Shown here piece by piece: positions 15,425 through 52,960 of a DNA stretch of 64,000 nt; the first letter of the stretch is position 1; every line of letters starts with the position of its first letter. The DNA is from Actinomycetota bacterium. Lineage in GTDB: Bacteria; Actinomycetota; Acidimicrobiia; IMCC26256; JAENVU01. The notes beneath the pieces were generated by a model. It worked only from the letters and a program-made list of their open reading frames with translations, ran no database searches and had not been told where the DNA came from. A program made the position numbers and the translations under genes. The DNA lies in assembly GCA_016870395.1 (NCBI GenBank), contig VGBT01000004.1, positions 1 through 64,000 on the forward strand, in the 5' to 3' direction.

Positions 15425-15472
15425 GGCGCCAGCCTGCCAGACGGTCCGGGGCGGGAACGGCACCCAGAGACC

Positions 15473-32511: not shown

Positions 32512-33165
32512 CTACGGGCGTCGGGCCTCGCTGCCCGCGACGGTCTCGCCGGCGCCGGAGGTCGTCGTGGCGACGATGCGGGCGGTCGTCTCGACGACGT
32601 CAGACCGGGAGACGCCGTACACCTCGAGATCGGTGTGAAACGCCGCCATGCGCTCGATCATCGCGACCAGCGCGGCCGCGGCCGCAAACGGGGTCAAGCC
32701 CTCGGCGCCCGAGTGCTCCACCTTGGTGGCGAGCGCCTCGGTTAGCGGTTGGAGCGCGGCGTTACGCACGTCGCGGAAGCGCTGATCACCCTCCTGCGCG
32801 GCGAGGTTGCGCGTGCGGAGGATCGCTCGGTGGTGGTCCCAGTAGGTGAGGAAGCCGTCGACGAGCTCTCGGGCCAGGGCGAGCCCGTCGTCGCCGTCCC
32901 AGGGCCTCGCGAGGAGCTGGCCGAGCGGCGCGGACTGCTCCCCCACCTCCTCCGCGAGCACGAGGACCGCCTCCTCGACGTCGCGGAAGTACTGGTAGAA
33001 GGTCGCCGGGGAGGTGCCGACCTCGCGGGCGATCTCGACCACGCGCAGGTCGCGCAGGCCGCTGCTCTCGAGCTGCTCGCTCGTCGCCTCGAGCAGGCGG
33101 CGCCGGGTCTCGATCCCCCGCTTGCCCAGCGGTCGCCCGTCGAGGGCGACCGCGTCGTCAATCAC
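32512..33165 (-). CDS. TetR-family transcriptional regulator
   Basis: A 217-residue regulator. The N-terminal helix-turn-helix (about residues 17-62) is clear: RRRLLEATSEQLESSGL, VVEIAREVGTSPATFYQYFRDVEEAV. The C-terminal ligand domain is unremarkable; the resemblance to actinobacterial regulators of lipid/steroid genes is general. The GTG at 33165 is chosen because it lies 8 nt after TACTCT, giving a leaderless start. A palindrome related to the window's catabolic operators abuts that -10, so autoregulation is likely and it is my candidate for the regulator of the dispersed operator set. Confidence 0.9.
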   Translation of the reverse strand: MIDDAVALDGRPLGKRGIETRRRLLEATSEQLESSGLRDLRVVEIAREVGTSPATFYQYFRDVEEAVLVLAEEVGEQSAPLGQLLARPWDGDDGLALARELVDGFLTYWDHHRAILRTRNLAAQEGDQRFRDVRNAALQPLTEALATKVEHSGAEGLTPFAAAAALVAMIERMAAFHTDLEVYGVSRSDVVETTARIVATTTSGAGETVAGSEARRP

Positions 33166-33901: not shown

Positions 33902-34606
33902 TCACAGCGGGTCGCCGCGGGAGAGGAGCGTGCCCGGGAACGGGGTCATCAGCTCCTCGCGCCACACCGTGAGGTGCTCCAGAGACCGCGCCCGCCACCG
34001 CGCCACACGCTCGTCGCCCGCGTCGATCGCGCGGCCGAGCGACTCGTGGCCGGCGGGGTCGGTGGCCCACACCGTGCACACCTCGGTGTCTGTCATCAAC
34101 ACCTCGTAGAGGCCCACGAGCGCGTGACCGTGGTCGGCGACGATCGGCGCCCACTCCTCGCGCACCGCGGCCAGGTAGTCGGGTCCGGCGCCGGGCCGGC
34201 ACCGCGACAGCTCGTGCACGAGCACGGAGCCGATCACCCCGTCGCGGCGCAGATCCGCGATCGTGGGGCACCCGGGCACCGCGCCGAGCAGGCGGTCGAC
34301 GCCGCCGCTGCGCACCTCGAGTGCCGTCTTCCACCACTCGTTGAGCGCGGGGTTGCGCGTGCGGGCAAGGTTGGTCGACTCCATGAGCCGGCGCCAGCCC
34401 GCACGGCCTCCGATGCACTCCCAGATGTTCACCACCTGCGGCCACCGACCGGTGGAGCCCATCGTGTAGAAGGTGCCGAGCAGGGCGAGGCCCTTGCCCG
34501 CCGCCGCGTCGCAGTCGAACGCGACGGTGTGCTCCATGTAGCGCATCGCACCTTCGCCGACGATGTCGACGTACTCGTGCAGGTAGAGCGCCCGATCCTC
34601 GGTCAC
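33902..34606 (-). CDS. hypothetical protein, two-repeat NIPSNAP/dimeric-barrel-like
   Basis: A 234-residue protein I cannot assign firmly. It appears to hold two alpha+beta repeats: residues about 1-105 (LYLHEYVDIVGEGAMRYME ... VVNIWECIGGRAGWRRLM) and about 115-225 (VHELSRCRPGAGPDYLAAV ... VLMTDTEVCTVWATD). The VNIWE and CTVWATD strands resemble ferredoxin-like NIPSNAP/EthD subunits. Its GTG overlaps the DUF35 stop (GTGA). Last gene of the thiolase-DUF35 operon, so it probably serves the same pathway. Confidence 0.6.
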   Translation of the reverse strand: MTEDRALYLHEYVDIVGEGAMRYMEHTVAFDCDAAAGKGLALLGTFYTMGSTGRWPQVVNIWECIGGRAGWRRLMESTNLARTRNPALNEWWKTALEVRSGGVDRLLGAVPGCPTIADLRRDGVIGSVLVHELSRCRPGAGPDYLAAVREEWAPIVADHGHALVGLYEVLMTDTEVCTVWATDPAGHESLGRAIDAGDERVARWRARSLEHLTVWREELMTPFPGTLLSRGDPL

Positions 34607-35058
34607 GGGGCTGCTACCCCGGATGGATCGGCCGGGTCGAAGTCCACGAACGCGACCTCGTCGCTCGCCGGCCGGAACGTGGCGCGCACCCGCATGCCGA
34701 TCCGCGCATCCTCCGGGGCGACGTTCGGCAGCTGGGCGAGGAAGCGCGCGCCCGCCTCGTCGAGGTCGACCAGCGCGACGAGGTACGGGGCCTGCTCCTT
34801 GAACGGCGGGATGCCGTGCTGGCGGATCACCGTGAACGAGTGCACCGTTCCGAGCCCGTTGGCGGTCACCCATTCGAGGTGCTCGCTCCCGCAATGCGGG
34901 CACAGAACGCGCGGGTAGTGGTGGTGCTGCCCGCAGTCGGCGCAGCGCTGCACCCGCAGCTCGCCGCGCACGGTGCCCGCGAAGAACTCCGTCGCCTCCG
35001 GCGTGACCCGCGGGATCAGGTACTTGGGGATGCCGGTGTCGGGTGACTCTTTCCTCAT
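34603..35058 (-). CDS. DUF35 zinc-ribbon/OB-fold acyl-CoA-binding protein
   Basis: A 151-residue DUF35 protein. The zinc ribbon uses Cys39, Cys42, Cys53 and Cys56 (CADCG, CPHCG). The OB-fold follows with GTVHSFTVIRQ and PYLVALVDLDEAGARFLAQL. Proteins of this type pair with thiolase-fold enzymes; in steroid side-chain degradation the ChsH2 DUF35 domain binds the Ltp2 aldolase. The gene overlaps both neighbours by 4 bp, so a 1:1 complex with the thiolase-like protein is likely. Confidence 0.9.
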   Translation of the reverse strand: MRKESPDTGIPKYLIPRVTPEATEFFAGTVRGELRVQRCADCGQHHHYPRVLCPHCGSEHLEWVTANGLGTVHSFTVIRQHGIPPFKEQAPYLVALVDLDEAGARFLAQLPNVAPEDARIGMRVRATFRPASDEVAFVDFDPADPSGVAAP

Positions 35059-36218
35059 CGCACCGGCTCCGTTCCGAGGACGACGGTGGCCATGGAGGAG
35101 AGCCAGCCCCCGCTGCCGTGCGCCACCGCGATCTCCGCGCCGCTCACCTGGCTGTCACCCGCCTCGCCGCGCAGCTGGCGGATCGCCTCGCAGAGCAGGA
35201 ACAGACCCCGCATCCCCGGATGGGTCGCCGAGAGCCCGCCGCCGTCGGTGTTGGTCGGCAGCGCGCCACCGAGGCGCAGCGCGCCCGACGCCACGAACGG
35301 CCCGCCCTCCCCCTTCGGCGCGAAGCCGAGGTCCTCGAGGCAGACCAGGACGGTGTAGGTGAACGAGTCGTACATCTGGAACGTGTCGACGTCGGCCGCG
35401 GTGATCCCCGCCTCGGCGAACACCTTCGGGCCGGTGACCGCGGCGGCGGTGCGAGTGAGGTCGGGCATGCCCTGGATCGAGTGGTGGGTCATCGCCCCCG
35501 CCGCGCCGCGCACGAACACGGGGCGCGCCCGCAAGGCCCGCGCCCGGTCCTCGGTGGTGAGGATGATGCAGCATCCGCCGTCGGAGACGACGCAGCAGTC
35601 GAGCTTGTGCAGCGGGTCGGCCACCAGCTTCGAGCCGAGCACGTCGTCGACGGTGATCGGGTCGCGATACATCGCGTGCGGGTTGCGGGCCGCGTGCTCG
35701 CGGGTCTGCACCGAGATCGACGCGAGCTGCTCGGGGGTGGTGCCGTACTCGTGCATGTGGCGCTGGGCGGCCATCGCGTAGGCGCCGACAAGCGTGAGGC
35801 CGGTCGGCAGCTCGTAGGCCATCGGGTGCGGCAGCGCGATTCCCCCGCCACCGGACCGCCCGGTGCCGAGCGACCTGCCAGCCGTGGACAGCTCGTTGTT
35901 GCCGTAGACGATCGCGACGGTGTCGACGTCGCCTGCGGCGATCGCGCGGTACGCGTGCTGCGCGTGGAACTCGAAGCTCGACCCGCCGCAGCTCGTGGAG
36001 TCGAGCCACTCGGGCGTGAGGCCGAGGTACTCGGCGAGCATCACCTCGTGCAGGCCGCCGTAGCCCGCCGAGGCGAGGCCCTCCACGTCGGACTTCGCGA
36101 GCCCGGCGTCGTCGAGCGCGCGCCGAAAGGCCTGTGCCTCGAGCATCAGCCCCGTCATCTCGGGGGTCCTCGGCCCGTCCGAGAGGCCCACCCCCACCAC
36201 GCACACCCGCCGATTCAC
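35055..36218 (-). CDS. thiolase-fold lipid-transfer-type enzyme (Ltp2/SCP-x like)
   Basis: A 387-residue thiolase-superfamily protein. STSCGGSSFEFHAQHAYRAI holds the first-Cys region and THPGMRGL the His region. The position of the second catalytic Cys reads AHGSGGWLSSMATVVL, without Cys. MYDSFTYTVLVCLEDLGF is the Tyr-containing segment of Ltp2-type aldolases. Together with the overlapping DUF35 gene this suggests a retro-aldolase or atypical thiolase acting on a branched acyl-CoA, not a standard FadA. GTG start 7 nt after TACCAT, leaderless; an operator abuts the -10. Confidence 0.85.
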   Translation of the reverse strand: MNRRVCVVGVGLSDGPRTPEMTGLMLEAQAFRRALDDAGLAKSDVEGLASAGYGGLHEVMLAEYLGLTPEWLDSTSCGGSSFEFHAQHAYRAIAAGDVDTVAIVYGNNELSTAGRSLGTGRSGGGGIALPHPMAYELPTGLTLVGAYAMAAQRHMHEYGTTPEQLASISVQTREHAARNPHAMYRDPITVDDVLGSKLVADPLHKLDCCVVSDGGCCIILTTEDRARALRARPVFVRGAAGAMTHHSIQGMPDLTRTAAAVTGPKVFAEAGITAADVDTFQMYDSFTYTVLVCLEDLGFAPKGEGGPFVASGALRLGGALPTNTDGGGLSATHPGMRGLFLLCEAIRQLRGEAGDSQVSGAEIAVAHGSGGWLSSMATVVLGTEPVR

Positions 36219-36225
36219 CGGCGGG

Positions 36226-36249
36226 ATGGTATCTGACGCTCCGTCAGAT
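36226..36249. promoter_or_regulatory. divergent operator for Ltp2-like and ThDP-like operons
   Basis: ATCTGACG-CTC-CGTCAGAT (36231-36249) shares a base with the minus-strand -10 TACCAT (36226-36231) of the thiolase. The plus-strand gene starts at 36267 with CAGGAT 6 nt before its GTG. Near-identical to the sites at 2451 and 52936. Confidence 0.8.
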
Positions 36250-36266
36250 CGTGCCAGGATGGGCCG

Positions 36267-37199
36267 GTGCACCTGCTCGGCGCGCACGTGTCCGACCTGT
36301 CCGTCGAGCTCGCGCGCGCGCTCGACGGGGTCACCATGCCTGGTGCGCTCGCGTACGCGCTCGGCCTCGACTCTCCGGCACGGCCCCCGGGCGGTTCCGT
36401 GCTCCTCGACCAGCCCCGCGGCCGGGTCGCAATGCTCGCCGGCCCCGACGTGCTGACGTTCCGGGCCGTCGACGGGCTGCGCGAGTTCGCGGTTGCCGCG
36501 CACGTCGGCGTCGCGAACACCTGGGGCGCGAAGGGCGTGTTCCCGTGGGACAGCCCGCATCACCTCGGCACGTGTGGGCTCCAGGCAGACGACTTCCCGC
36601 TGCTCGGGTTCGCGGACCTCGACGTGCTGTGGGTCACCGGGATCGACGAAGCCGAGTCGCCCCGGGCGCGCATCGAGCTGGGCGCACGCATCGAGGTGAT
36701 CGATCCGCGCGACCTCGCGCCGCTCGCCTCGCACGTCGCGCGCTCACCGCACCCGATCGAGACTCCACCGCTGTTCGCGCGGCTCGCGGCGGTGGCCCAG
36801 CCGGGTTACGTCGACGACCGGCACCCCCGCCACCCGGCCCGCGCGGTCATGGACCTGAAGCGGTCGCTGGCTCCGGGCGCGCTGGTCGTGGCCGAGCCCG
36901 GACCTACCGGCCTGTGGATAGCGCGCACGTTCCCCACCGACGGGCCCGGGACGGTGGTGGTCCCCGCGACGAGCACCCCTGGCGTCGCCGCGGCGAGCGC
37001 GCTCGCGGCTGCCGCCCACGGGATCCCCACCGCGCTCGTCGCTCTCGCGCCCGCCGACGCGACCGTCGCAGAGGCGTCTACGGTCGCCGACCGGCACGAT
37101 TTCCCGTTCACCGTCCACGAGTGGGGCGACGACGTCGACCTCTCCCTCACCCAGGTGCTAGTGGAGGCCGCCGGTCCCGTCGTAGCGTGGCCGGGATGA
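36267..37199 (+). CDS. ThDP-enzyme central-domain-like protein, function unknown
   Basis: A 310-residue protein. Residues about 10-130 recall the central (TPP_enzyme_M) domain of acetolactate-synthase-type enzymes: LREFAVAAHVGVANTWGAKGVFPWDSPHHLGTCG, then LGFADLDVLWVTGID. The N-terminal pyrimidine-binding and C-terminal GDG pyrophosphate domains of complete enzymes are not evident; the second half has only GALVVAEPGPTGLWIARTFP. It may be a stand-alone acyl-CoA or nucleotide-binding module. GTG start; ATGA overlap with the following SDR. Divergent from the Ltp2-like gene over a shared operator. Confidence 0.55.
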   Translation: MHLLGAHVSDLSVELARALDGVTMPGALAYALGLDSPARPPGGSVLLDQPRGRVAMLAGPDVLTFRAVDGLREFAVAAHVGVANTWGAKGVFPWDSPHHLGTCGLQADDFPLLGFADLDVLWVTGIDEAESPRARIELGARIEVIDPRDLAPLASHVARSPHPIETPPLFARLAAVAQPGYVDDRHPRHPARAVMDLKRSLAPGALVVAEPGPTGLWIARTFPTDGPGTVVVPATSTPGVAAASALAAAAHGIPTALVALAPADATVAEASTVADRHDFPFTVHEWGDDVDLSLTQVLVEAAGPVVAWPG

Positions 37200-37969
37200 C
37201 CGATCCCCGTACCCACCTCCGAACAACTGCCGTCACCGGTGCGTCGTCGGGCATCGGACGGGCAACCGCGATCGCGCTGGGCGCGCTCGGCTGGAACGTC
37301 GCCGTCGGGGCACGTCGCGCCGAACGCCTCGCGGAGACGGCCGCCGCGGTCGAGAACGCCGGCGGCCGCGCGATCGCCGCCCCGCTCGACGTCACCGACG
37401 CCGCGTCCATCGACGCCTTCTTCGCGACCGTCGAGGATGCCGTCGGGCCGGTGGACGTGCTCGTCAACAACGCCGGGATCGCCTCCCCGGCCCACCTGGT
37501 CGACACCGACCCGGCGGCGCTCGCCCGCGAGCTCGGCACCAACCTGCTCGGGCCTCTCCTGTGCACCCGGCGCGCACTCGGTCCGATGCTCGACGCCGGC
37601 TCCGGCGACGTCGTGTTCGTCACCTCCGACGTCGCGCGGGCGCCAAGACCCGGGATGGTGGGATACAGCGCGTCGAAGGTCGCGCTCGAGACCGTCGCTC
37701 GCGTCGTCGGCATGGAGGTGGAGGGCCGGGGCGTGCGGACCACCGTCGTGCGGATCGGGCCCACGGTCAGCGACTTCGCGGCGAGCTGGGAGCCCGGCGT
37801 CTTCGAGCACCTGGTGGCCGACTGGCCCCGCTTCGGCCTCCAGCGCCACTTCGCGACGATGGACCCGAGCGACGTGGCGGCCGCGGTGGTGCACGCGCTG
37901 ACCCGCCCCGCCCACATGCAGGTCGAGATGATCGAGGTGCAGCCGCTCGCACCACGCGACGGCACCTGA
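37196..37969 (+). CDS. short-chain dehydrogenase/reductase
   Basis: A 257-residue SDR: VTGASSGIGRAT cofactor loop, DVLVNNAGIASPAH, catalytic YSASK with Ser in VTSDVARAP. The basic VGARRAERL segment after strand 2 favours NADP(H). The ATG overlaps the upstream gene by ATGA. Probably an alcohol or 3-hydroxyacyl oxidoreductase in the same operator-controlled unit. Confidence 0.88.
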   Translation: MTDPRTHLRTTAVTGASSGIGRATAIALGALGWNVAVGARRAERLAETAAAVENAGGRAIAAPLDVTDAASIDAFFATVEDAVGPVDVLVNNAGIASPAHLVDTDPAALARELGTNLLGPLLCTRRALGPMLDAGSGDVVFVTSDVARAPRPGMVGYSASKVALETVARVVGMEVEGRGVRTTVVRIGPTVSDFAASWEPGVFEHLVADWPRFGLQRHFATMDPSDVAAAVVHALTRPAHMQVEMIEVQPLAPRDGT

Positions 37970-38044: not shown

Positions 38045-39328
38045 ATGAGGCTCGACGACATGATCATCGTCAGCGTTGACGATCACGTGGTGGAGCCGCC
38101 CGACATGTTTGAGCGCCACCTCCCGGCGAAGTACGCCGATCTCGCGCCGAAGATGGTGCACAAGGGCGACGGCACCGACGTGTGGCGCTTCGGACAGATC
38201 GAGATCCCGAACGTCGGGCTCAACGCGGTGGCCGGACGACCCAAGGAGGAGTACGGGATCGAGCCGACCTCCTTCGAGGAACTGCGCCCGGGCTGCTTCG
38301 ACGTCTCCAAGCGCGTCCTCGACATGGACGCGAACGGCGTGCTCGGCTCGCTCAACTTCCCGAGCCTCCCGGGCTTCGCCGGTCGCTTGTTCGCGTCGAT
38401 GGACGACAAGGACGCCGCGAAGGTGCTCACGCAGTCCTACAACGACTGGCACATCGACGAGTGGTGCGGGTACGCCCCTGATCGGTTCATCCCGCTCGCG
38501 ATCCCGATGATCTGGGACCCGCACGCGCTCGCGGAGGAGATCCGCCGCGTGGCCAAGAAGGGCTGCCACGCGGTCACGTTCCCCGAGAACCCGCAGCCCC
38601 TCGGGGTGCCCAGCCTGCACTCGGATTACTGGGACCCGTTCTGGGAGGCGTGCTCCGACGAGGGGACGATCGTCTGCATGCACATCGGGTCGTCGAGCAA
38701 GCTCGTGATGACCGCCGACGACGCGCCGATCGACGTGATGATCGTGCTTCAGCCGATGAACATCGTCCAATGCGCAGCCGACCTGATCCACTCACCGGTG
38801 CTGCGGAAGTTCCCCGACCTCACCGTCGCGCTCTCCGAGGGCGGGATCGGCTGGATCCCGTACTTCCTCGAACGCCTCGACCACTCGTACCGGACCCACA
38901 AGGCCTGGACGGGCGCCGACTTCGGCGGGAAGCTGCCAAGCGAGGTGTTCCTCGAGCGCGTGGTGCTCTGCTACATCTCCGACGGCGTCGGCGTGCGACT
39001 CGCACGCGACATCGGCGTCGACCGCATCACCGTCGAGATCGACTATCCGCACTCCGACGCCAACTGGCCGAAGGCCCCGGAGAAGCTGATGGAGGAGTTC
39101 GCGGCGGCGGACCTCGCCGACTCGGAGATCGACGCGATCACCCACGAGAACGCGATGCGGTTCTTCCGCTACGACCCGTTCTCGACCCGACCGCGGGAGC
39201 AGTGCACCGTCGGCGCGTTGCGAGCCGAGGCCGGCGATTGGGACGTGTCGGAACGCTCGACGGCCCGCACACAGAAAGCCAAGCGCGAAGGGTACGTGAA
39301 GATCAACGATCTTACTGCCACGGCGTGA
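38045..39328 (+). CDS. amidohydrolase 2 family (ACMSD-like) protein, paralogue 2
   Basis: A 427-residue TIM-barrel metal enzyme. IIVSVDDHVVEPPDMFERHLP, CMHIGSSSKL, SEGGIGWIPYFLERLDH and EIDYPHSDANWPKAPE follow the same order as in the proteins at 6182 and 51683. Like them it has DDH in place of the N-terminal HxH. A basic C-terminal tail (about 395-427) is extra. AAGGGGGAG gives a good ribosome site. The downstream P450 GTG overlaps its stop, so the two are translationally coupled, suggesting a hydroxylated product or shared substrate. Confidence 0.9.
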   Translation: MRLDDMIIVSVDDHVVEPPDMFERHLPAKYADLAPKMVHKGDGTDVWRFGQIEIPNVGLNAVAGRPKEEYGIEPTSFEELRPGCFDVSKRVLDMDANGVLGSLNFPSLPGFAGRLFASMDDKDAAKVLTQSYNDWHIDEWCGYAPDRFIPLAIPMIWDPHALAEEIRRVAKKGCHAVTFPENPQPLGVPSLHSDYWDPFWEACSDEGTIVCMHIGSSSKLVMTADDAPIDVMIVLQPMNIVQCAADLIHSPVLRKFPDLTVALSEGGIGWIPYFLERLDHSYRTHKAWTGADFGGKLPSEVFLERVVLCYISDGVGVRLARDIGVDRITVEIDYPHSDANWPKAPEKLMEEFAAADLADSEIDAITHENAMRFFRYDPFSTRPREQCTVGALRAEAGDWDVSERSTARTQKAKREGYVKINDLTATA

Positions 39329-40500
39329 GCACTGCAGTCCGGTACGACCCGTACGCGTACGCGACGCACGAGGACCCGTACCCCGTCTACCGCCGGCTGC
39401 GGGACGAGGCCCCCGCGTACGTCGACGAGGAACGAGGCTTTTGGGCGCTGTCGCGCCACGACGACGTGCGCGCCGCGCTCGACGACGTCGCGACGTTCTC
39501 GTCCACCGGGGGCATCACCCTCGACAGCGACACAGGCACGCTCGAGCCGATGCTCATCGAGATGGACCCGCCCCGCCACACCGCGCTACGGGCGCTCGTG
39601 AGCCGGGCGTTCACCCCCCGCCGGGTCGCCGAGCTCGAAGGGCCCGTGCGGACCATCTCGCGCGAGCTCATCTCCCGGTTCGACGCCGAGCGGATCGACG
39701 GGATCGGGGACTTCGCGGCCCGCCTGCCGATGGCGGTGATCTCCGCGATGCTCGGTGTGCCACCCGACGATCAGGACCAGCTGCGTACCTGGTCGGATTC
39801 CCTGCTGCACCGAGAAGAAGGCTCGAGCGTCCTGACCCCGGAGGGAATCGAAGGCGCCGCGCACCTGTACGGCTACATCGACCGGCTCGTCGCGGCCCGC
39901 CACTGCGCGAGGGGCCCCGATCTCGTCAGCGCACTGGTCACGCTGCAAGTGGACGAGGGCGCCCTCACCCATCAGGAGGTGCTCGGCTTCTGCTTTCTCC
40001 TGATCATCGCCGGCAACGAGACCACTACGAAGCTCCTCGGCAACGCGCTCTACTGGCTGGCCGAACACCCCGACCAGCGCGCGCTGCTGCAGGCCGACCT
40101 CGCGGCGATCCCGCCCGCCGTCGAGGAGGTGCTGCGCTACGACACCTCCACCCAGGGCCTCGCGCGCCGGCTCACCCGCGACGTGACCCTGCACGGCGTG
40201 ACTCTCCCTGCGGGGATGAAGGGGCTACTGCTGTTCGCGGCCGCCAACCGCGACGAGCGCCGCTGGGCCGACCCCGACCGGTTCGACGTGACCCGCAACC
40301 CGGCCGGCCATCTCGCGTTCGGACACGGAATCCACCACTGCCTGGGCGCGTCGCTGGCCCGACTCGAGACCCGGGTCGCGCTCGAGGAGCTGCTCCCGGC
40401 ACTCGGCGACTACGTGGTCGATCACGACGGATGCGAGCGCGTCCACTCCGGCAACGTCCGCGGGTTCGTCCACCTGCCCTTCCGCTGCCCGTCTCGGTGA
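39325..40500 (+). CDS. cytochrome P450
   Basis: A 391-residue class I CYP: I-helix LLIIAGNETTTKL, ExxR EEVLRYDTS, heme loop FGHGIHHCLG with Cys339. The GTG at 39325 is chosen because GTGA overlaps the amidohydrolase stop. The only visible [3Fe-4S] ferredoxin gene is far away at 5536. Followed 19 nt later by a methyltransferase. Substrate unknown, but coupling to the amidohydrolase is notable. Confidence 0.95.
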   Translation: MSTAVRYDPYAYATHEDPYPVYRRLRDEAPAYVDEERGFWALSRHDDVRAALDDVATFSSTGGITLDSDTGTLEPMLIEMDPPRHTALRALVSRAFTPRRVAELEGPVRTISRELISRFDAERIDGIGDFAARLPMAVISAMLGVPPDDQDQLRTWSDSLLHREEGSSVLTPEGIEGAAHLYGYIDRLVAARHCARGPDLVSALVTLQVDEGALTHQEVLGFCFLLIIAGNETTTKLLGNALYWLAEHPDQRALLQADLAAIPPAVEEVLRYDTSTQGLARRLTRDVTLHGVTLPAGMKGLLLFAAANRDERRWADPDRFDVTRNPAGHLAFGHGIHHCLGASLARLETRVALEELLPALGDYVVDHDGCERVHSGNVRGFVHLPFRCPSR

Positions 40501-40519
40501 CGCTGGCCGTGGCATCGCC

Positions 40520-41287
40520 GTGAGCAAGCGCACCGACGACTACCAGCGCACCAACCGGGAGTTCTGGGACGCAGACGCCGACGACTACCAGGACGCCCAC
40601 ACGTCCCAGCTCGACGACGGCGTGGAGGCCTGGGGCGTCTGGCAGATCCCCGAGCGCGACCTGCAGGTGCTCGGCGAGGTCGACGGGGCGGACGTTCTCG
40701 AGCTCGGGTGCGGCGCCGCCCAGTCGTCCGTTCAGCTCGCCGCCCGTGGCGCGCGGATGACGGCGCTGGACCAGTCGGTGGGCCAGCTCCGACACGCCCG
40801 TGACCACGTCCGCGCGGCGGACGCGCCGGTGCGTTTGGTGTGCGCCAGCGCGACCGCGCTGCCCTTGCGCCCCGAGAGCTTCGACGTCGTGTTCTGCGAC
40901 CACGGCGCGATGAGCTTCACCGACCCGTTCGCCTCGGTGCCGGAGGTGCAGCGCGTGCTTCGGCCCGGAGGGCTCCTCGCGTTCAACATCTCCACGTTGC
41001 TGCGGTTCCTGTGCTTCCCCGAGGCCGATCCTGACGCGCTCGTCAGCCGCCGCCTCCACCAGAAGGCGTTCGGGCGACGGATGTTCGACTGGGGCGACGG
41101 CACGATCGACTTCCAGATGCTCCACGGCGACTGGATCCAGTGCTTCCGTACCAACGGCTTCGACGTCGAGGACCTGATCGAGCTGCGCGCGCCGAAGGGC
41201 GCGACAACGACCTACGGCGAGTACGCCAACTACCGATGGGCACGGCGCTGGCCGTGCGAGGAGATCTGGAAGGTACGCAAGCGGTGA
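40520..41287 (+). CDS. class I SAM-dependent methyltransferase
   Basis: A 255-residue methyltransferase: motif I DVLELGCGAAQSS, motif II MTALDQSVGQL, post-I FDVVFCDHGAMSF and VLRPGGLLAFNIST. Methyl-group acceptor unknown. GTG start 19 nt after the P450 stop. The following 2H-phosphoesterase overlaps its stop (GTGA), so four plus-strand genes from 38045 form one tight unit. Confidence 0.9.
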   Translation: MSKRTDDYQRTNREFWDADADDYQDAHTSQLDDGVEAWGVWQIPERDLQVLGEVDGADVLELGCGAAQSSVQLAARGARMTALDQSVGQLRHARDHVRAADAPVRLVCASATALPLRPESFDVVFCDHGAMSFTDPFASVPEVQRVLRPGGLLAFNISTLLRFLCFPEADPDALVSRRLHQKAFGRRMFDWGDGTIDFQMLHGDWIQCFRTNGFDVEDLIELRAPKGATTTYGEYANYRWARRWPCEEIWKVRKR

Positions 41288-41823
41288 TCCGCCGTACCGG
41301 GCTGCTGGTTCCCGTGGAAGCCGTCGAGGCGCTCGTGGGCGCGATCCGCGGGCGATGGGACCCGGTCGCGCACCGCGGTGTCCCCGCCCACGTGACGGTG
41401 CTCTACCCGTTCGTTCCCGCCGACGGGCTCAGCGCGGTCGAGGTCGAAGCGGTACGCGACGCTCTGGCGCCGATCCCCGCGTTCACGTTCGAGTTCTTGC
41501 GCACGGGTCGCTTCGGCGACACCGTGCTGTACCTCGCGCCTGAGCCGGACGCGCCGTTCCGGGCGCTGACCACTGCGCTGGTCGCACGCTTCCCGGAGCA
41601 GCTGCCCTACGAAGGCGAGTTCGACGACGTGGTGCCACACCTGACCGTGGCCGACGCGCTGGCAGCCCCGCTCGGAGAGCTCGAGGCGACTGTGCGCGCC
41701 GGGCTGCCGATCGCGGCGCGTGCCACGGAGGTCTGGCTCATGGTGGAGGGCGACGACAACCGCTGGACCACCCACACCACCTTCCCCCTCCACCTCTGGC
41801 CCCACGGGGCTTTGGCGTCATGA
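41284..41823 (+). CDS. 2'-5' RNA ligase-like 2H phosphoesterase
   Basis: A 179-residue protein with two HxT motifs, HVTVLYPF (about residues 36-43) and VPHLTVAD (about 120-127), the signature of the 2H superfamily. Members cleave or form 2'-5' or cyclic phosphodiester bonds in RNA and small nucleotides. The stop codon and last four codons (ALAS) fall inside a family A palindrome, so the C-terminus was fixed or altered by that element. Confidence 0.85.
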   Translation: MIRRTGLLVPVEAVEALVGAIRGRWDPVAHRGVPAHVTVLYPFVPADGLSAVEVEAVRDALAPIPAFTFEFLRTGRFGDTVLYLAPEPDAPFRALTTALVARFPEQLPYEGEFDDVVPHLTVADALAAPLGELEATVRAGLPIAARATEVWLMVEGDDNRWTTHTTFPLHLWPHGALAS

Positions 41824-41855
41824 AACCGCGACTATCGCGGTCTGCTGACGCCAAA
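41811..41855. repeat. family A 45-nt double palindrome, copy 3
   Basis: TTTGGCGTC / GACGCCAAA outer arms, spacers ATGAA and CTGCT, centre ACCGCGA-CTA-TCGCGGT (compensated variant). It overlaps the end of the 2H phosphoesterase gene by 13 nt and ends 18 nt before the convergent ligase stop. Confidence 0.9.
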
Positions 41856-41872
41856 GCCCTGGAGGGGGTGGG

Positions 41873-43477
41873 TCAGCGGCGGTCGAAGGTGATCCCGGCG
41901 GCCTCGCGATCCCAGGTCGTCGCGGTGATGCCGTCGTCGCGCAGCTCGTACTTGAGGACCCGGCCGACAGGGTTGCGCGGGAGGTCCGTCCGGAACTCCA
42001 CGTAGCGCGGGATGGCGAAGTAGGGGACGCGCTCAGCCATCCATCGGCAGAGGTCCTCCTCCGACAGCGTGGCCCCCTCGCTGAGCACCGCGGTGACCTT
42101 CACGTCGTCCTCGCCCTGCTCGCTCGGGACTGCGTGGACCGCGCCATCCTTCACGGCCTCGTGCGCGAGCAGCGTCCGCTCCATCTCGAAGCTCGAGATG
42201 TTCTCGCCGCGGCGGCGCAGACAGTCCTTCTTCCTGTCGACGAAGTACAGGAAGCCGTCGGCGTCGAGGCGGCCCAGGTCTCCGGTGTGAAACCACAGGT
42301 TGCGCAGCACCTCGACCGTCGCCTCCGGGCGGCCCCAGTAGCCGGCGAACATGAGGTTGGGACCCTTGGGTCGGCAGACGATCTCGCCGATCTCGCCGAC
42401 GGGCACCTCGCAGTCGTCGTCGTCGACGAGGCGCACGTCGAACTCGTGGGTGTTGGGCTTGCCGGCCGCGCCCGCCTTGTTGAGCTCCCCGGCCCGCAGC
42501 ATCGAGATGAGCGACGCCTCGGTCAGCCCGTACCCCCCGCTGAAGGTCGCGCAGCCGAAACGCTCCCGCCAGATCCGGTCGGTGTCGGGTGGCATCGGAG
42601 CGGCAGCGCACAGCCGAAGCCGATGGCCCTCCTGGTCGGGATGGTCCTCGGCATTCGCGATGAGGATCGCCAAGGAACCGAGCATCGACAGGATCGTCGC
42701 GCCGGTGCGGCGCACCTCGGGCCAGAAGCGGCTCACCGAAAACTTGCGGGCGATCGACGCGCGACCGCCGGTGAGCAGCGTCCCCACCACGCACACCGAG
42801 ATCGCGTTGAGATGGAACAACGGCAGCGGCGTGAGCACCACGTCGTCGGGCCGGCGCTCCCAGGCCCGGGCGACCTGGCGTGCGAGCGAGACGACGTAGT
42901 GGTGCGGGAGCATGCAGCCCTTCGACGGGCCCGTGGTGCCCGCGGTGTAGACGAGGCAGGCCAGGTCGGCCGGATGCACGCGGGGGTCCGGCACCGGGCC
43001 GGCAGGCGCCGCAGCGAGCAGCGCGTCCCACGAGGTCGTCGCGACGGTGGAGATGGGCTCGTCGGGGTCGCCGACCACGATCGCCGCACCGAGCTCGGGA
43101 AGCTCGGAACCCGCCACCGCGGCAATCCGTCCGGCGAGCTCACCCTGCACGACGATCACCCGGGCCCCCGAGTCATCGAGGACATGGCGCAAGAACTCGC
43201 CCTTGTAAGCGGTGTTGATCGGGACCTGGATCGCTCCCAGCTTCAGCGCGGCGAAGAAGGACACCACCTGCTCCGAAGTGTTCTCGAGAAACGTCGCGAC
43301 CCGATCGCCACGTCCGACCCCGAGCGTCGCGAGGCCGTGGGCCAGGCGATCCGCCGCCTCGTCGACTTCCCGGGCGCTCAACGCCCGGCCTTCGAAGTCG
43401 AGGTACGGACCGTCGGGATCGACCGCCAAGCGCGCCCCGAGGGCGGCCAGGACGGTGGTCTGGTCGGAGCCAGTCAT
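41873..43477 (-). CDS. acyl-CoA synthetase, CaiC-like AMP-binding protein
   Basis: A 534-residue ANL ligase. P-loop VYTAGTTGPSKGCMLPHH, A5 GYGLTEASL, A7 TGDLGRLDADG, A8 VDRKKDCLRRRGENIS. The opening FLENTSEQVVSFFAALKLGAIQVPINTAYKG resembles carnitine/crotonobetaine-CoA ligases. In A10 the usual GK is GR (PRNPVGRVLKYEL), so the catalytic Lys is replaced or shifted to the nearby VLK. Leaderless ATG 8 nt after TAGTGT, which overlaps an operator palindrome, as expected for repression. Confidence 0.88.
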   Translation of the reverse strand: MTGSDQTTVLAALGARLAVDPDGPYLDFEGRALSAREVDEAADRLAHGLATLGVGRGDRVATFLENTSEQVVSFFAALKLGAIQVPINTAYKGEFLRHVLDDSGARVIVVQGELAGRIAAVAGSELPELGAAIVVGDPDEPISTVATTSWDALLAAAPAGPVPDPRVHPADLACLVYTAGTTGPSKGCMLPHHYVVSLARQVARAWERRPDDVVLTPLPLFHLNAISVCVVGTLLTGGRASIARKFSVSRFWPEVRRTGATILSMLGSLAILIANAEDHPDQEGHRLRLCAAAPMPPDTDRIWRERFGCATFSGGYGLTEASLISMLRAGELNKAGAAGKPNTHEFDVRLVDDDDCEVPVGEIGEIVCRPKGPNLMFAGYWGRPEATVEVLRNLWFHTGDLGRLDADGFLYFVDRKKDCLRRRGENISSFEMERTLLAHEAVKDGAVHAVPSEQGEDDVKVTAVLSEGATLSEEDLCRWMAERVPYFAIPRYVEFRTDLPRNPVGRVLKYELRDDGITATTWDREAAGITFDRR

Positions 43478-43483
43478 CGGAGC

Positions 43484-43497
43484 TGACACTACCGTCA
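43484..43497 (-). promoter_or_regulatory. operator overlapping -10 of CaiC-like ligase
   Basis: TGAC-ACTACC-GTCA. The minus-strand -10 TAGTGT (43486-43491) lies inside the palindrome, 8 nt from the ATG at 43477. A bound protein would block RNA polymerase directly. Confidence 0.7.
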
Positions 43498-43579
43498 CCC
43501 CACCAGGTCCCAACCGAGCCGCCCTGGTGTTCGCCCTCCCGGACGCGTCAAGATGGCACACCACGCATGGTCGATGAGT

Positions 43580-43596
43580 TGCCACCTCGGGTGGCA
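43580..43596 (+). other. short perfect hairpin in leader of GGDEF-EAL gene
   Basis: TGCCAC-CTCGG-GTGGCA, 6-bp arms and 5-nt loop, 21 nt before the ATG at 43617. It may influence translation of the signalling protein. No match to a known riboswitch is apparent. Confidence 0.4.
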
Positions 43597-43616
43597 TAGC
43601 TGGGGCGAGAACTGGG

Positions 43617-46112
43617 ATGCCGGTACCGGCGAGCGAACACGGTCGGGAGCAGCTTCGTGGACCGATCGACGTCGACGCGTTCCGGCTCGCCTTCGACGAC
43701 GCCCCGGTCGGTGTGGCGATCGGCACGGGAGACGGGCCGCTCGTGTACGTCAACGCCGCGATGTGCCGCATCCTCGGTCGATCGGCCGACGAGCTCGACG
43801 GCGAGGCGTTCCTCGCCGCGACCCATCCCGCCGACTGCCTCGTGGTGCGCGGCCACTTCCGGTCGCTCGCGGCCGGCGAGATCGACACCTACGTCTCCGA
43901 GACCCGCTTCCTGCATCCGGATCGCAGCGTGGTCCACGCCCGTGTTCACGTCGCGGCGAGCCGGGACGCCCGCGGCAAGCTCACGTATCTCGTGTGTCAC
44001 GCCGAGGACCTCACCGAGCAACGGCGGACCGAGGGCGAGCTGCGTGAGACCGAGGCGCGCTTCCGGGCCGCGAGCGAGGCCAGCCTCGACTCGCTGATGA
44101 TCTTCGACGCGGTGCGCGACGACGAGGGTCGAGTGGTCGACTTCCTTATCGTCGACGCGAACGACAACGCGGAGCGTCTCTTCGGCCGGCCTCGCGCCAG
44201 GCTGGTCGGGCGCCGGATCGTTGAGGCCTACCCGGAGGTGGTCACGACCGGCGCGTTCGCCCGCTACCGCGAGGTGCTGGAGACCGAAGCACCGTCGGTG
44301 CGCGAGTTCCCGGTCGACGACCCCAACGTCGCCGCCCACTGGCTCCGAGAGCAGATCGTGCCAATCGCCGACGGCATCGCGATCACCGCCAGCAACATCT
44401 CCGAGCGCAAGGCCATCGAACTCGCGCTCCGGGCTACCGAGGCCCGGCTAACCGGCCTCCTCCGCCACTCGAGCGACGTGGTCCTAGTAATCGGACGTCA
44501 CGCACGGACGGTGTACGCAAGCCCCGCGGTCACCGAGGTGCTCGGGTACGCACCCGACGAGTTCCTCGGCTTCGACCTGCTCTCGCTCGTGCACCCCGAC
44601 GACCACACGGGCTGGCTCGAGCAGTGGCAGGCGGTCAACCACCAGCCCGGGACCCGGATCACCGTCGAGGTCCGGGCGCGCCGGGCCGACGGCGTGTACC
44701 GCTGGTGCGAGGTCACGCTCCGAGACCTGAACCGCGATCCCGCGATCGACGGCTACGTCGTGCACTTCCACGACGTCACCGATCGTCGTGAGGCTCAGCA
44801 CGACCTCGCCCAGCGCGCGCTGCACGATGATCTCACCGGCCTCGGCAACCGTGCCCTGTTTCTCGACCGGCTCGCGCTCGCACTGCATCGCAGCGAGCGT
44901 ACGACCGACCACGCCGTCGTGCTCTTCTGCGACCTCGACCACTTCAAGGCGGTGAACGACACTTTGGGCCATTCCGTCGGCGACGCGCTGCTCCGCGAGG
45001 TGGGCGCCCGCCTTCGCAACGCGCTCCGCCCAGGCGACACCGTGGCTCGCATCGGGGGCGACGAGTTTGCGGTGTGCTGCGAGGACGTGCTCGACCACGC
45101 CGAGGCGGCGAAGCTCGGCGAGCGCATTCTCGACGCGTTCCGAGAGCCCTTCACGGTGCTCGGACGCGAGCTTCGTCTCACTACCAGCATCGGCATCGCG
45201 CTCAGTGACACCGCCAGCACGTCGCCGGAGAGTCTGCTGCGCGATGCCGACGCCGCGATGTACGTCGCCAAGGGCAAGGGACGCAGCCGCGCCGAGCGCT
45301 TCGACGAGAGAGCGCGCAACCAGGTGCAGCGACGCCTCGACATCGAGGACGGGCTCCGCCTGGCAGTGGTCGAGGGGCGCCTCGACCTCCGGTGGCAGCC
45401 GATCTTTTCGCTCGCCACGGGCCGAGTAGTCGGAGTCGAGGCGCTCGTGCGCTGGCCGCATCCCGAGCAGGGACTGCTGGGCCCCGACGAGTTCCTCCAC
45501 GTCGCGACTGAGACCGGCCTCGACGCCGAGATCGGCGGTTGGGTCCTGACAACCGCCGCGGCACAAGCCGCCGCCTGGCGCGACCTCGCGCTGGTCGACC
45601 CCGGCACCGTCTGGGTCAACGTCACGGAAAATCAGCTGCGGCGGCGCAGCCTCCTCGGCGACGTGGCCACGCTCATGGCCGAGCACTCCCTCGGCACCGG
45701 GTCGCTCGGGTTCGAGCTCACCGAGCCGATCCTGGCCGAGGCCGACAGTACCCCCGCCATCGCCACCAACCTCGCGGGACTCTCGGGCCTCGGATGCCGC
45801 ATCGCGCTCGACGACTACGGCACCGGCTACTCGTCGCTGCCGGCGATTCGCCGCCACCGGGTCGGCGTGCTCAAGTTGCATCCGGGCCTGTTCGGCCGCG
45901 GGTCAGACGGCACGGTAGGCATGATCGAGCTGATCGTCGCGGTGGGCCATCGGATGGGGCTCGAGATCAGCGCCGAGGGCGTCGAGACGGCCGAGCAATT
46001 GGCGCTGTGCTCGCGCGCGGGATGCAGCTCGGCAGCGGGGTACCACCTCGCCGCGCCGACGCGCGCCGACGCGCTCATCGAGCTGCTGCCCACCGCCGCT
46101 CCCACCCGTTGA
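43617..46112 (+). CDS. PAS-PAS-PAS-GGDEF-EAL cyclic-di-GMP signalling protein
   Basis: An 831-residue soluble sensor. Three PAS domains (about 20-140, 145-270, 275-395) precede GGDEF (about 400-565; intact RIGGDEFAV at 478-486, DLDHFKAVND upstream) and EAL (about 575-825; Glu608-Ala-Leu, FELTEP, DDYGTGYSSL). The diguanylate cyclase site looks complete. The EAL site has changes: the K-I-D motif reads KLH (753-755) and the last QGY reads AGY, so phosphodiesterase activity is doubtful. No membrane segment is seen. Monocistronic. Confidence 0.93.
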   Translation: MPVPASEHGREQLRGPIDVDAFRLAFDDAPVGVAIGTGDGPLVYVNAAMCRILGRSADELDGEAFLAATHPADCLVVRGHFRSLAAGEIDTYVSETRFLHPDRSVVHARVHVAASRDARGKLTYLVCHAEDLTEQRRTEGELRETEARFRAASEASLDSLMIFDAVRDDEGRVVDFLIVDANDNAERLFGRPRARLVGRRIVEAYPEVVTTGAFARYREVLETEAPSVREFPVDDPNVAAHWLREQIVPIADGIAITASNISERKAIELALRATEARLTGLLRHSSDVVLVIGRHARTVYASPAVTEVLGYAPDEFLGFDLLSLVHPDDHTGWLEQWQAVNHQPGTRITVEVRARRADGVYRWCEVTLRDLNRDPAIDGYVVHFHDVTDRREAQHDLAQRALHDDLTGLGNRALFLDRLALALHRSERTTDHAVVLFCDLDHFKAVNDTLGHSVGDALLREVGARLRNALRPGDTVARIGGDEFAVCCEDVLDHAEAAKLGERILDAFREPFTVLGRELRLTTSIGIALSDTASTSPESLLRDADAAMYVAKGKGRSRAERFDERARNQVQRRLDIEDGLRLAVVEGRLDLRWQPIFSLATGRVVGVEALVRWPHPEQGLLGPDEFLHVATETGLDAEIGGWVLTTAAAQAAAWRDLALVDPGTVWVNVTENQLRRRSLLGDVATLMAEHSLGTGSLGFELTEPILAEADSTPAIATNLAGLSGLGCRIALDDYGTGYSSLPAIRRHRVGVLKLHPGLFGRGSDGTVGMIELIVAVGHRMGLEISAEGVETAEQLALCSRAGCSSAAGYHLAAPTRADALIELLPTAAPTR

Positions 46113-46115
46113 GGA

Positions 46116-47663
46116 TCAGGGTCGGATGCCGGTATGGCGCGCCGGCTCCGGAGGCTCCGTCCGGCGCGTAGTGCTGAGCCGCATCGCGTGCAGCAGCACG
46201 TTCCGCAGATCCCGCGGGTCGACGACCTGGTCGTAGCTCAGGTTGTCGGCCGCGCCATAGGCTCCACCGAGTTCGGCCTGGGCCATCAGAGCCCGAAGAT
46301 CGGCATCGACGTTCGCAGCGTCGGCGCCGCTGTCCGCCGGCATTGCCCCGAGCCGGATACCGGGAAACGCGACGGTGACCGTCTGCCCGTCGAAGGGGTT
46401 CATCGCCATCAGCGAGGAGCCGAACCCGTAGGCCTTGCGCAGCGTGACGTGGAGCTTCGGGCTGCGGACGCGGGCCTGGGCCGCGAACATCCGTGCGGCG
46501 TGGCGGAGGATGCCGCTGCGCTCGGCCGCCGTCCCCGCGAGCACCCCGGGGTTGTCGGCGAGGAACAGGACGGGGAGGTGGAACGCGTCGGCGACCTCGA
46601 GGAAGCGAGCGGCCTTGTCGGCGCCTTCGGCGTCGATCGCACCCGCTTTCACCGCGGGCTGGTTGGCCACGACCGCGACGGCATCGCCCCCGAGGCGCGC
46701 CAGCGCGGTGACCACGACCCGGCCGTGGCCGGGTGAGACCTCGAGCGCGCTGTCGGAATCGCAGACGACGTCGATCACGCGGCGGACGTCGTAGGGCCTG
46801 CGGGGGTCGGCGGGGACCACCTCGAGCATGGCGTCGAGCCGTGCGGCACCCGGTCCCGGGGGGTCGGGCGCGACGGGCGGGTGCTGCCAGGCGTTCGACG
46901 GGAGGTACGAAAGGTAGCGGCGGACCAGGTCGAGCGCGGCGCGGTCGTCGGGCGCGGCGTTGTGGGCGACCCCGCTCGTGACGGTGTGGACGGCCGTGCC
47001 GCCGAGGGCCTCGGCCGTCACCTGCTCCCCCGTCGCGGCGGCTACGAGCGGTGGGCCCGCGGCGAAGATCGCCGCGCCTTCCACCATCACCACGAAGTCC
47101 AGGAGCGGCGCGGTGAGTGCGCCATGTCCGGCGCTCGGCCCCATCACGACCGCGACGGTCGGCACGAGGCCGCTGAGCGCCGCGAGCGCCTGCAGGTCGT
47201 TGGGCGCGTGGGGATGCCGCTCGTAGGCGTTCTGGGCCCGCGCGCCGGCACCTTCGAGCAGCATGACGAGCGGGACACGCTCCTGTGCCGCGAGCTGTGC
47301 GAGCCGGTGGCGCTTGGCCATCGTGCCGATGCCGATCGAGCCGCCCATCACCGTGAAGTCCTCGGCGCCGACGAGCACGGGTCGCCCGTCGACGAGACCG
47401 TGCCCCGCGACGAGGCCGTCGGCGGGCGCGGGCGGGGTCGCGCCCCGCTCCAGCGAGCCGACCAGCGCGCCGATCTCGACGAACGACCCCGGGTCGCAGA
47501 GGTGTCGCACCCGCTGGCGGGCGTCAAGGCGATTTGCGTCGTGCCGGGCCTCGAGTCGGTCGGGCCCGCCCATCGCGGCGGCCGCCGTCTCCCGCGCGGC
47601 CAGATCGGCGAGCAGCGGCTCCCAGCCGCCGCCTTCCCCCCACGGGGTTTTGGCGTCGCTCAA
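46116..47663 (-). CDS. acyl-CoA carboxylase carboxyltransferase (PccB/AccD-like)
   Basis: A 515-residue biotin-dependent carboxyltransferase. It has two crotonase-like halves: oxyanion loops GGSIGIGTMAKRHRLAQ and GAGARAQNAYERH in the first, FLADNPGVLAGTAAERSGILRHAARMF and RKAYGFGSSLMAMNPF in the second. It transfers CO2 from biotin to an acyl-CoA (propionyl- or methylcrotonyl-type). The biotin carboxylase partner is not in the window. The start is unusual: the TTG at 47663 lies inside a family A palindrome and overlaps the previous stop (TTGA). The ATG at 47573 is an alternative but would remove the usual WEPLLADLAARE opening. Confidence 0.88.
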   Translation of the reverse strand: MSDAKTPWGEGGGWEPLLADLAARETAAAAMGGPDRLEARHDANRLDARQRVRHLCDPGSFVEIGALVGSLERGATPPAPADGLVAGHGLVDGRPVLVGAEDFTVMGGSIGIGTMAKRHRLAQLAAQERVPLVMLLEGAGARAQNAYERHPHAPNDLQALAALSGLVPTVAVVMGPSAGHGALTAPLLDFVVMVEGAAIFAAGPPLVAAATGEQVTAEALGGTAVHTVTSGVAHNAAPDDRAALDLVRRYLSYLPSNAWQHPPVAPDPPGPGAARLDAMLEVVPADPRRPYDVRRVIDVVCDSDSALEVSPGHGRVVVTALARLGGDAVAVVANQPAVKAGAIDAEGADKAARFLEVADAFHLPVLFLADNPGVLAGTAAERSGILRHAARMFAAQARVRSPKLHVTLRKAYGFGSSLMAMNPFDGQTVTVAFPGIRLGAMPADSGADAANVDADLRALMAQAELGGAYGAADNLSYDQVVDPRDLRNVLLHAMRLSTTRRTEPPEPARHTGIRP

Positions 47664-47693
47664 CCGCGATTCTCCCGGTCTGGTGACGCCAAA
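47649..47693. repeat. family A 45-nt double palindrome, copy 4, inside a gene junction
   Basis: TTTGGCGTC / GACGCCAAA outer arms, spacers GCTCA and CTGGT, centre ACCGCGATTCTCCCGGT, which is partly degenerate. The stop codon of the acyl-CoA dehydrogenase (47660-47662) and the probable TTG start of the carboxyltransferase (47661-47663) lie inside it, so it is translated at the protein ends as ALASPDRENRG and MSDAK. Confidence 0.9.
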
Positions 47694-52935: not shown

Positions 52936-52960
52936 CTAATCTGACGATCCGTCAGATTAG
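52936..52960 (-). promoter_or_regulatory. 25-nt perfect operator of amidohydrolase paralogue 3
   Basis: CTAATCTGACG-ATC-CGTCAGATTAG: 11-bp perfect arms around ATC, the longest and best example of the TGACG-N3-CGTCA type. It lies 26 nt upstream of the GTG at 52909. Minus-strand TAGATC adjoining the right arm could be the -10. Confidence 0.85.

Follow-up and report, generated by a model that had tools for sequence, protein, structure and literature searches.

Gene content of the divergent locus

The window analyzed here, a 64-kb stretch of an Actinomycetota genome of the class Acidimicrobiia (contig C4 of G000; 2.98 Mb in 97 contigs), has a G+C content of 71% and carries a divergent locus. One arm of this locus encodes a thiolase-fold protein with a DUF35 partner, a candidate C–C lyase that is the main subject of this analysis, while the other opens with a degenerate thiamine diphosphate (ThDP)-fold protein. 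The first arm is a minus-strand operon of the thiolase-fold gene, the DUF35 gene, and a third gene, in which each neighboring pair overlaps by 4 bp (ATGA at 35055–35058 and GTGA at 34603–34606). The plus-strand arm consists of the ThDP-like gene (310 aa) followed by a short-chain dehydrogenase (SDR) gene, which overlap in an ATGA at 37196–37199. The divergent starts, a GTG codon at 36218 for the thiolase-fold gene and position 36267 for the ThDP-like gene, are separated by a gap of 48 bp.

33902–34606, minus strand: third gene, predicted tandem dimeric alpha+beta barrel of NIPSNAP/ABM/chlorite-dismutase-like fold (AlphaFold, Foldseek, family alignment)
34603–35058, minus strand: DUF35 protein, zinc ribbon and OB fold (Pfam, PDB matches, zinc ligands from sequence)
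35055–36218, minus strand: cysteine-less thiolase-fold protein of the PRK06158/4u4e branch, proposed retro-aldolase-like C–C lyase (motifs, tree, NCBIfam)
36233–36247, no strand: palindrome CTGACGCTCCGTCAG, located within the 48 bp that separate the divergent genes
36267–37199, plus strand: degenerate ThDP-fold protein, central and PP-like domains (Pfam, model, alignment)
37196–37969, plus strand: SDR (Pfam, 160.6 bits; NCBIfam)

The gene descriptions in the original prediction, made from the DNA alone, were right in substance, and every gene named there was found with its frame intact.

Active site and descent of the thiolase-fold protein

A search of the PDB identified 4u4e as the nearest solved structure to the thiolase-fold protein (316 bits), ahead of the steroid aldolase Ltp2 (6ok1, 179 bits) and the bile acid aldolase Sal (9myr, 178 bits). 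In agreement with this order, the protein is by score a member of NCBIfam PRK06158 (NF004811; 435.1 bits, cut-off 421), whereas its 253 bits against the Ltp2-type model PRK07855 lie well under the cut-off of 469. Motif alignments with SCP2-type thiolases further revealed that both thiolase cysteines are missing: the column of the nucleophilic Cys holds Gly, and the HDCF motif reads YDSF, with Ser in the column of the acid/base Cys. The catalytic His of the thiolase GHP motif is retained as His333 in a THPG motif, and YDSF and His333 are both conserved among the cluster orthologues. The cysteine loss that had been predicted from the C-terminal AHGSGG thus stands and extends to the first, nucleophilic Cys, but the diagnostic motifs of this branch are YDSF and THPG rather than AHGSGG. 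We also considered the Cys of SCGGSS as a thiolase nucleophile and rejected it, since the thiolase Cys column aligns with the second Gly, two residues further on.

In Ltp2, the Tyr of the YDHF motif serves as the base and its His forms the oxyanion hole, while Tyr344 occupies the column of the thiolase His; in Sal, the corresponding elements are YDCY and Gln352 (PMC12329534). The segment described earlier as an Ltp2-like Tyr segment does coincide with the catalytic Tyr position of Ltp2 and Sal, although it reads YDSF and not YDHF. In the maximum-likelihood tree, a starred branch parts the Cys-bearing thiolases from Sal, Ltp2, and the thiolase-fold protein. The latter and its orthologues form their own clade with 4u4e and relatives from Polaromonas and Rhodococcus (support 99/99), and the T. 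curvata Ltp2 pairs with another protein of this genome, encoded on contig C17 (support 100/99). Because of its tree position, motif states, and NCBIfam scores, the protein is assigned by descent and residues to the aldolase side of the family, and it is not an Ltp2. Relatives of about 50% identity, found on plasmids of Rhodococcus, Streptomyces, Polaromonas, roseobacters, and one haloarchaeon, indicate that the branch is common, and the protein is itself one of about 15 thiolase-fold proteins in the genome; what sets it apart is the mix of residues in its active site, along with its oxygenase neighbor and the ThDP relic described below.

The partner gene overlapping the thiolase-fold gene (34603–35058) encodes a DUF35 protein, as had been claimed, with OB_ChsH2_C (PF01796) at 74.7 bits and zf-ChsH2 (PF12172) at 48.8 bits in Pfam. 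Its PDB matches include the DUF35 chains 9myr_B and 6ok1_B, and zinc ligands of the form C-x2-C-x10-C-x2-C can be read from its sequence. In all eight aligned relatives (8/8), the DUF35 gene adjoins the cluster-type thiolase.

The shared fold, the catalytic Tyr position, the DUF35 partner, and the steroid-type genes of the genome would all fit the reaction of Ltp2 in steroid side-chain degradation, the retro-aldol removal of the C3 side chain at carbon C17, which the locus had been said to resemble. The resemblance extends to the cysteine-less clade shared with Ltp2 and Sal but not to Ltp2 itself: YDSF replaces YDHF, His takes the place of Tyr344, the PRK07855 score is 253 against a cut-off of 469, ChsH1/ChsH2 do not lie alongside, and the protein falls outside the Ltp2 clade. 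Furthermore, a run of consecutive genes on contig C17 (L149:2989-7879, where L149 is G000:C17:12000-31900) encodes two acyl-CoA dehydrogenases (ACADs), FAS1-type dehydratase, DUF35, and MaoC proteins, and a lipid-transfer protein that scores 652.8 bits against PRK07855 (cut-off 469) and carries the motifs YDHF and AY. Judged by sequence, the genome's Ltp2 step is done by this contig-C17 protein, and an Ltp2 role for the thiolase-fold protein at the divergent locus is very unlikely. The contig-C17 operon is otherwise textbook-like, with ChsH2 split into separate FAS1_DH and DUF35 proteins.

The steroid context assumed in the original prediction is borne out elsewhere in the genome. On contig C3 (L134; G000:C3:140000-159900), an SDR of PRK07856 and an enoyl-CoA hydratase of PRK07938 are encoded together with two subunits of a CoA-transferase, a DUF35/thiolase pair, and genes for a ligase, ACADs, and a thiolase; in light of the KstR2 regulon, we take this gene set to be a HIP (steroid ring C/D) operon. 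The two subunits are presumably IpdA and IpdB, the computed support being for a CoA-transferase only. A KshA_C protein is also encoded in the genome, while IpdE2, used as a marker, gave no match above cut-off.

The same residues bear on a further alternative, in which the pair would act as an acyltransferase or Claisen-type condensing enzyme in the manner of PhlC or BbsB. These belong to the same superfamily and likewise use DUF35 partners (PMC12329534), and the thiolase His is retained here; with Gly in the nucleophilic Cys column, Ser for the Cys of HDCF, and a tree position on the cysteine-less side, we consider this role improbable.

The conserved cluster and its members

The locus had been viewed as a complete small pathway module. 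Instead, it is part of a larger conserved cluster that runs past 37969 through 38045–49752 and whose purpose looks to be the breakdown of large acyl-CoA molecules. The features beyond the divergent locus are as follows.

32512–33165, minus strand: TetR-family regulator (Pfam TetR_N and TetR_C_38; start set by a codon model; orthologues in the same place in many relatives)
38045–39328, plus strand: amidohydrolase-fold protein nearest DitZ (8uyr)/PtmU3, candidate dinuclear oxygenase (370 bits, full length)
39325–40500, plus strand: cytochrome P450 (Pfam; best PDB matches CYP125MRCA and several other P450s at near-equal scores)
40520–41287, plus strand: class I methyltransferase (Pfam)
41873–43477, minus strand: acyl-CoA ligase (NCBIfam; neighborhood kept in relatives)
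46116–47663, minus strand: acyl-CoA carboxyltransferase-like protein (NCBIfam TIGR01117, 331 bits, under cut-off)
47660–48613, minus strand: ACAD, small partner (nearest NCBIfam model IpdE2, under cut-off)
48610–49752, minus strand: ACAD, large partner (best PDB matches the heteromeric, steroid-type ACADs 4x28 and 6wy8/6wy9)
51683–52909, minus strand: second DitZ/PtmU3-like amidohydrolase-fold protein (same operator upstream, 52941–52955)

Within the cluster, a PAS-GGDEF-EAL protein is encoded at 43617–46112 and is retained in several relatives.

The expectation that the same gene order would recur in other genomes was confirmed in many Acidimicrobiia of different families, far beyond chance. 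The recurrent frame consists of genes for aldehyde dehydrogenase, Ppx, TetR, the third gene (optional), the DUF35/thiolase pair (optional), the ThDP-like protein, SDR, oxygenase, P450, methyltransferase, ligase, and ACADs, and it is shared by Acidimicrobiia metagenome-assembled genomes (MAGs) and, in part, by the complete genome IMCC26256. Two of the MAG contigs with this order (L068, CAMBEL010000013.1, and L072, CAMDSG010000004.1) are titled 'Bifidobacterium breve', a label that looks wrong. The optional genes vary among relatives: the third gene occurs without the thiolase in seven loci (L037, L038, L039, L052, L055, L056, and L059), the thiolase/DUF35 pair without the third gene in eight (L040, L042, L045, L046, L048, L051, L053, and L060), and neither is present in, for example, L043, L044, L047, and L050. 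Among 61 genomes, close orthologues of both the thiolase (at least 696 bits) and the third gene (at least 386 bits) were found in this genome only. A tendency of the third gene and the pair to exclude each other is suggested, though statistically weak (p ~0.05 in ThDP-bearing loci and 0.18 over the 61 genomes, uncorrected for kinship). In L182–L187, which lack the ThDP-like gene, part of the thiolase neighborhood (TetR, DUF35, ligase, oxygenase, or ACAD genes) is still in place. Because several Frankia relatives (L101, L107–L109, and L113) combine the third and ThDP-like genes with an oxygenase homologue, this trio is likely the older core; in two others (L106 and L111), the third and ThDP-like genes occur without the oxygenase homologue. 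In L052 (7086-8321) and L055 (5214-6449), a CoA-transferase family III gene, supported by Pfam for L052, separates the third gene from TetR; the window has none.

The ThDP-like protein matches TPP_enzyme_M (PF00205) at 35.3 bits, barely above the cut-off, and Foldseek searches with its AlphaFold model (pLDDT 94.8) matched acetolactate-synthase-type enzymes in their central and PP domains. Alignment with the full-length enzymes L064 and L065 revealed the loss of three elements: the PYR domain, which bears the catalytic Glu of RHE; the GDG..N cofactor motif; and some 45 residues from the PP domain. Homologues of Frankia and Microthrix type, of about 420–485 aa, still carry a remnant resembling PYR in which the Glu is missing, and GDG..N is already gone from them. 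We rejected the idea that the gene is pseudogene debris, as homologous frames of 280–350 aa are conserved and 26 positions are invariant over 25 sequences. The earlier description as a central-domain-like ThDP fragment covers only part of the protein, which also has a PP-like domain and represents a conserved family rather than debris. Because the PYR domain and GDG..N are lost, we regard it as a conserved relic of an acetolactate-synthase-type enzyme that is predicted to be incapable of ordinary ThDP catalysis; that it binds an acyl-CoA or a nucleotide is our favored guess. Split ThDP enzymes exist, and the motifs of the M domain are strictly conserved, so a PYR half supplied by another subunit might be envisaged. 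Such an arrangement is highly improbable given a PP-like domain without the GDG, the Asn, and the stretch of about 45 residues, and no PYR-domain gene was recognized in the neighborhoods read, of which not every gene was Pfam-scanned. A literature search on ThDP pseudoenzymes returned nothing of use. The gene ilvX (Rv3509c) is named, without comparison, among the cholesterol-locus genes of M. tuberculosis (PMC6429209), and IlvX as a parallel to the relic is only a lead. As it stands, the relic offers a clean case of stepwise loss of a domain and a cofactor motif in which a core motif and the neighboring genes stay conserved.

The third gene, originally called an unrecognized two-repeat protein, does have two repeats, each beta-alpha-beta-beta-alpha in the AlphaFold model (pLDDT 86, pTM 0.85), but its fold can be recognized as a predicted tandem dimeric alpha+beta barrel of NIPSNAP-like type. 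Its best Foldseek matches are putative double-domain monooxygenases and the coproheme decarboxylase fold, and its score against NIPSNAP PF07978 (14.2 bits) is under the gathering cut-off of 22.3. Members of its family also occur away from the ThDP-like gene, beside oxygenase homologues and paired ACADs.

The protein at 38045–39328 matches DitZ (8uyr) over its full length with 370 bits and PtmU3 (6omp) with 127 bits, and the three share D-x-H..E, HIG, SEGG, and DYPH motifs. By analogy, it is a candidate amidohydrolase-related dinuclear oxygenase (ARO). PtmU3 and AibH2 are PF04909 dinuclear monooxygenases (PMC10811679, PMC10401708), and the ligand roles in the window protein were assigned by analogy to PMC10811679. 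Our literature search found no paper on DitZ, whose name is patterned on those of the abietane diterpenoid (dit) genes. Three such proteins are encoded in the window (6182–7429, 38045–39328, and 51683–52909), with mutual identities of 37–40%. Another protein of the window, encoded at 13871–15463, combines a Rieske domain with an SCP2 domain of Rv3818-like type and is a possible electron carrier for the oxygenases, though not next to their genes. Oxygenase homologue and thiolase genes are neighbors in other genomes as well: in Sphingomonas paeninsulae, DUF35, thiolase, and oxygenase homologue genes are consecutive, in Massilia putida the oxygenase homologue and thiolase genes are, and in L187 the thiolase is directly divergent from the oxygenase homologue.

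Both arms had been proposed to share an operator at 36231, and a palindrome, CTGACGCTCCGTCAG, does lie between the two starts, at 36233–36247. It occurs at 10 exact sites in the genome against 2 for the reversed-pattern control. Other sites lie near ACAD, amidohydrolase-fold, SDR, CoA-transferase/ACAD, and transporter genes, and one lies in the HIP-type operon on contig C3, where the SDR and enoyl-CoA hydratase genes diverge. Because the operator is common to these catabolic genes and the HIP-type operon, the divergent promoter appears to belong, in this genome, to a regulon of catabolic genes. In L043, L044, and L058, the operator is kept ahead of the 51683-type gene. A further copy in the window, at 2453–2467, lies upstream of a fused ACAD gene (257–2431).

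Proposed chemistry and relation to known systems

Because the thiolase-fold protein shares the cysteine-less clade of Ltp2 and Sal, retro-aldol cleavage appears the best mechanism, and we propose, with a probability of about 0.45, that the thiolase-fold/DUF35 pair is a C–C lyase from a non-Ltp2 branch of the cysteine-less SCP2-type thiolases. In this proposal, the DUF35 protein would dock onto the thiolase-fold dimer and shape the cleft. The Tyr of YDSF, at the position of Ltp2 Tyr294 and Sal Tyr302, would remove the proton of the beta-hydroxyl so that the C–C bond breaks by retro-aldol chemistry, and the His of THPG, at the position of Ltp2 Tyr344 and Sal Gln352, would handle the enolate proton. 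The substrate may be a polycyclic or branched acyl-CoA, probably isoprenoid-derived and made by the cluster's ligase. Given the DitZ/PtmU3-like neighbor, hydroxylation followed by retro-aldol cleavage is suggested, with the hydroxyl most likely introduced by the oxygenase at 38045–39328, or else by hydration after the paired ACADs. The SDR would oxidize or reduce the cleavage product, and the ThDP-like protein, formerly an acetolactate-synthase-type enzyme, would have some other conserved role. In its fullest form, the scheme amounts to an undescribed route that begins with beta-hydroxylation of a hindered polycyclic acyl-CoA by a DitZ-type dinuclear oxygenase. Cleavage would then fall to a thiolase-fold aldolase of a third type, with Tyr/Ser and His as its key residues, and the acetolactate-synthase relic, having no thiamine site, would contribute a newly acquired conserved function to this pathway, whether catalysis of a new kind, a scaffold role, or the binding of acyl-CoA. 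That all of this holds together is doubtful.

Several observations weigh against the proposed lyase and its setting. Our literature search found no tested activity for any member of the PRK06158/4u4e branch, nor a demonstration of retro-aldol chemistry by a Tyr and His pair, and, in contrast to Ltp2 and Sal, the pair has no adjacent MaoC-type hydratase such as ChsH1/ChsH2, either in the window or, by homology mapping, in the orthologous loci. The coupling of thiolase and oxygenase is suggested by gene neighborhood alone, and the oxygenase-linked thiolases of Massilia and Sphingomonas are of YDGF type and sit on another branch of the tree. The ThDP-like gene usually stands beside either the thiolase/DUF35 pair or the third gene and not both; since these usually do not occur together, the gene set singled out by the original prediction is not obligate. 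Finally, we had to discard the operator as a conserved feature of the divergent promoter, as its best matches in relatives have 3–6 mismatches. The pair might also cleave or form another bond, for example by hydrolyzing or decarboxylating a 3-oxoacyl-CoA during ring degradation without prior hydroxylation. The carboxyltransferase-like, ligase, and ACAD neighbors fit many acyl-CoA pathways, and the Trypanosoma SLP of the same group slowly decarboxylates malonyl-CoA (PMC12329534). With no direct support for such a step, and a Tyr/His geometry that favors aldol-type chemistry, by analogy only, we consider it unlikely, yet worth keeping in mind.

The proposed lyase matters beyond this locus, as DUF35–thiolase pairs are abundant and mostly labeled 'acetyl-CoA acetyltransferase'. 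Branch members without any thiolase cysteine, together with a real Ltp2 elsewhere in the genome, argue against both the thiolase label and an easy Ltp2 label, and the Tyr of YDSF and the His of THPG are concrete residues for testing.

Comparison with known systems reveals partial likeness throughout the locus. The third protein has the two-repeat ferredoxin-like fold of the NIPSNAP/ABM dimeric alpha+beta barrels but is a sequence family of its own under the NIPSNAP cut-off. The ThDP-like protein shares the central and PP-like domain fold of acetolactate-synthase-type enzymes (PRK08322, 24pi, 4rjk), yet without PYR, catalytic Glu, and GDG..N, and with a shortened C-terminal part. In contrast to DitZ and PtmU3, no adjacent Rieske partner was recognized at 38045–39328. 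With the Ltp2–ChsH2(DUF35) aldolase (6ok1; PMC12329534), the pair shares the thiolase fold, the DUF35 partner, the catalytic Tyr position, and the absence of the thiolase Cys; it differs in the third motif residue (Ser for His), in His333 for Tyr344, in its separate clade, and in having no hydratase partner next to the thiolase-fold gene. The Sal–Shy bile acid aldolase (9myr; PMC12329534) likewise has Gly at the nucleophile site, the Tyr base position, and a DUF35 partner, whereas it carries YDCY with a catalytic Cys in place of YDSF and Gln352 in place of the His; compared with Shy, the DUF35 protein here has a canonical C4 zinc site, not C3H1, and no MaoC-domain fusion. The closest likeness is to 4u4e, an uncharacterized 'Thiolase' in the PDB on which our literature search returned nothing of use: the homology spans the whole length at about 47% identity, both proteins lack the nucleophilic Cys and carry YDSF and THPG, and they differ before the GG, where the window protein has Cys and 4u4e has Val.

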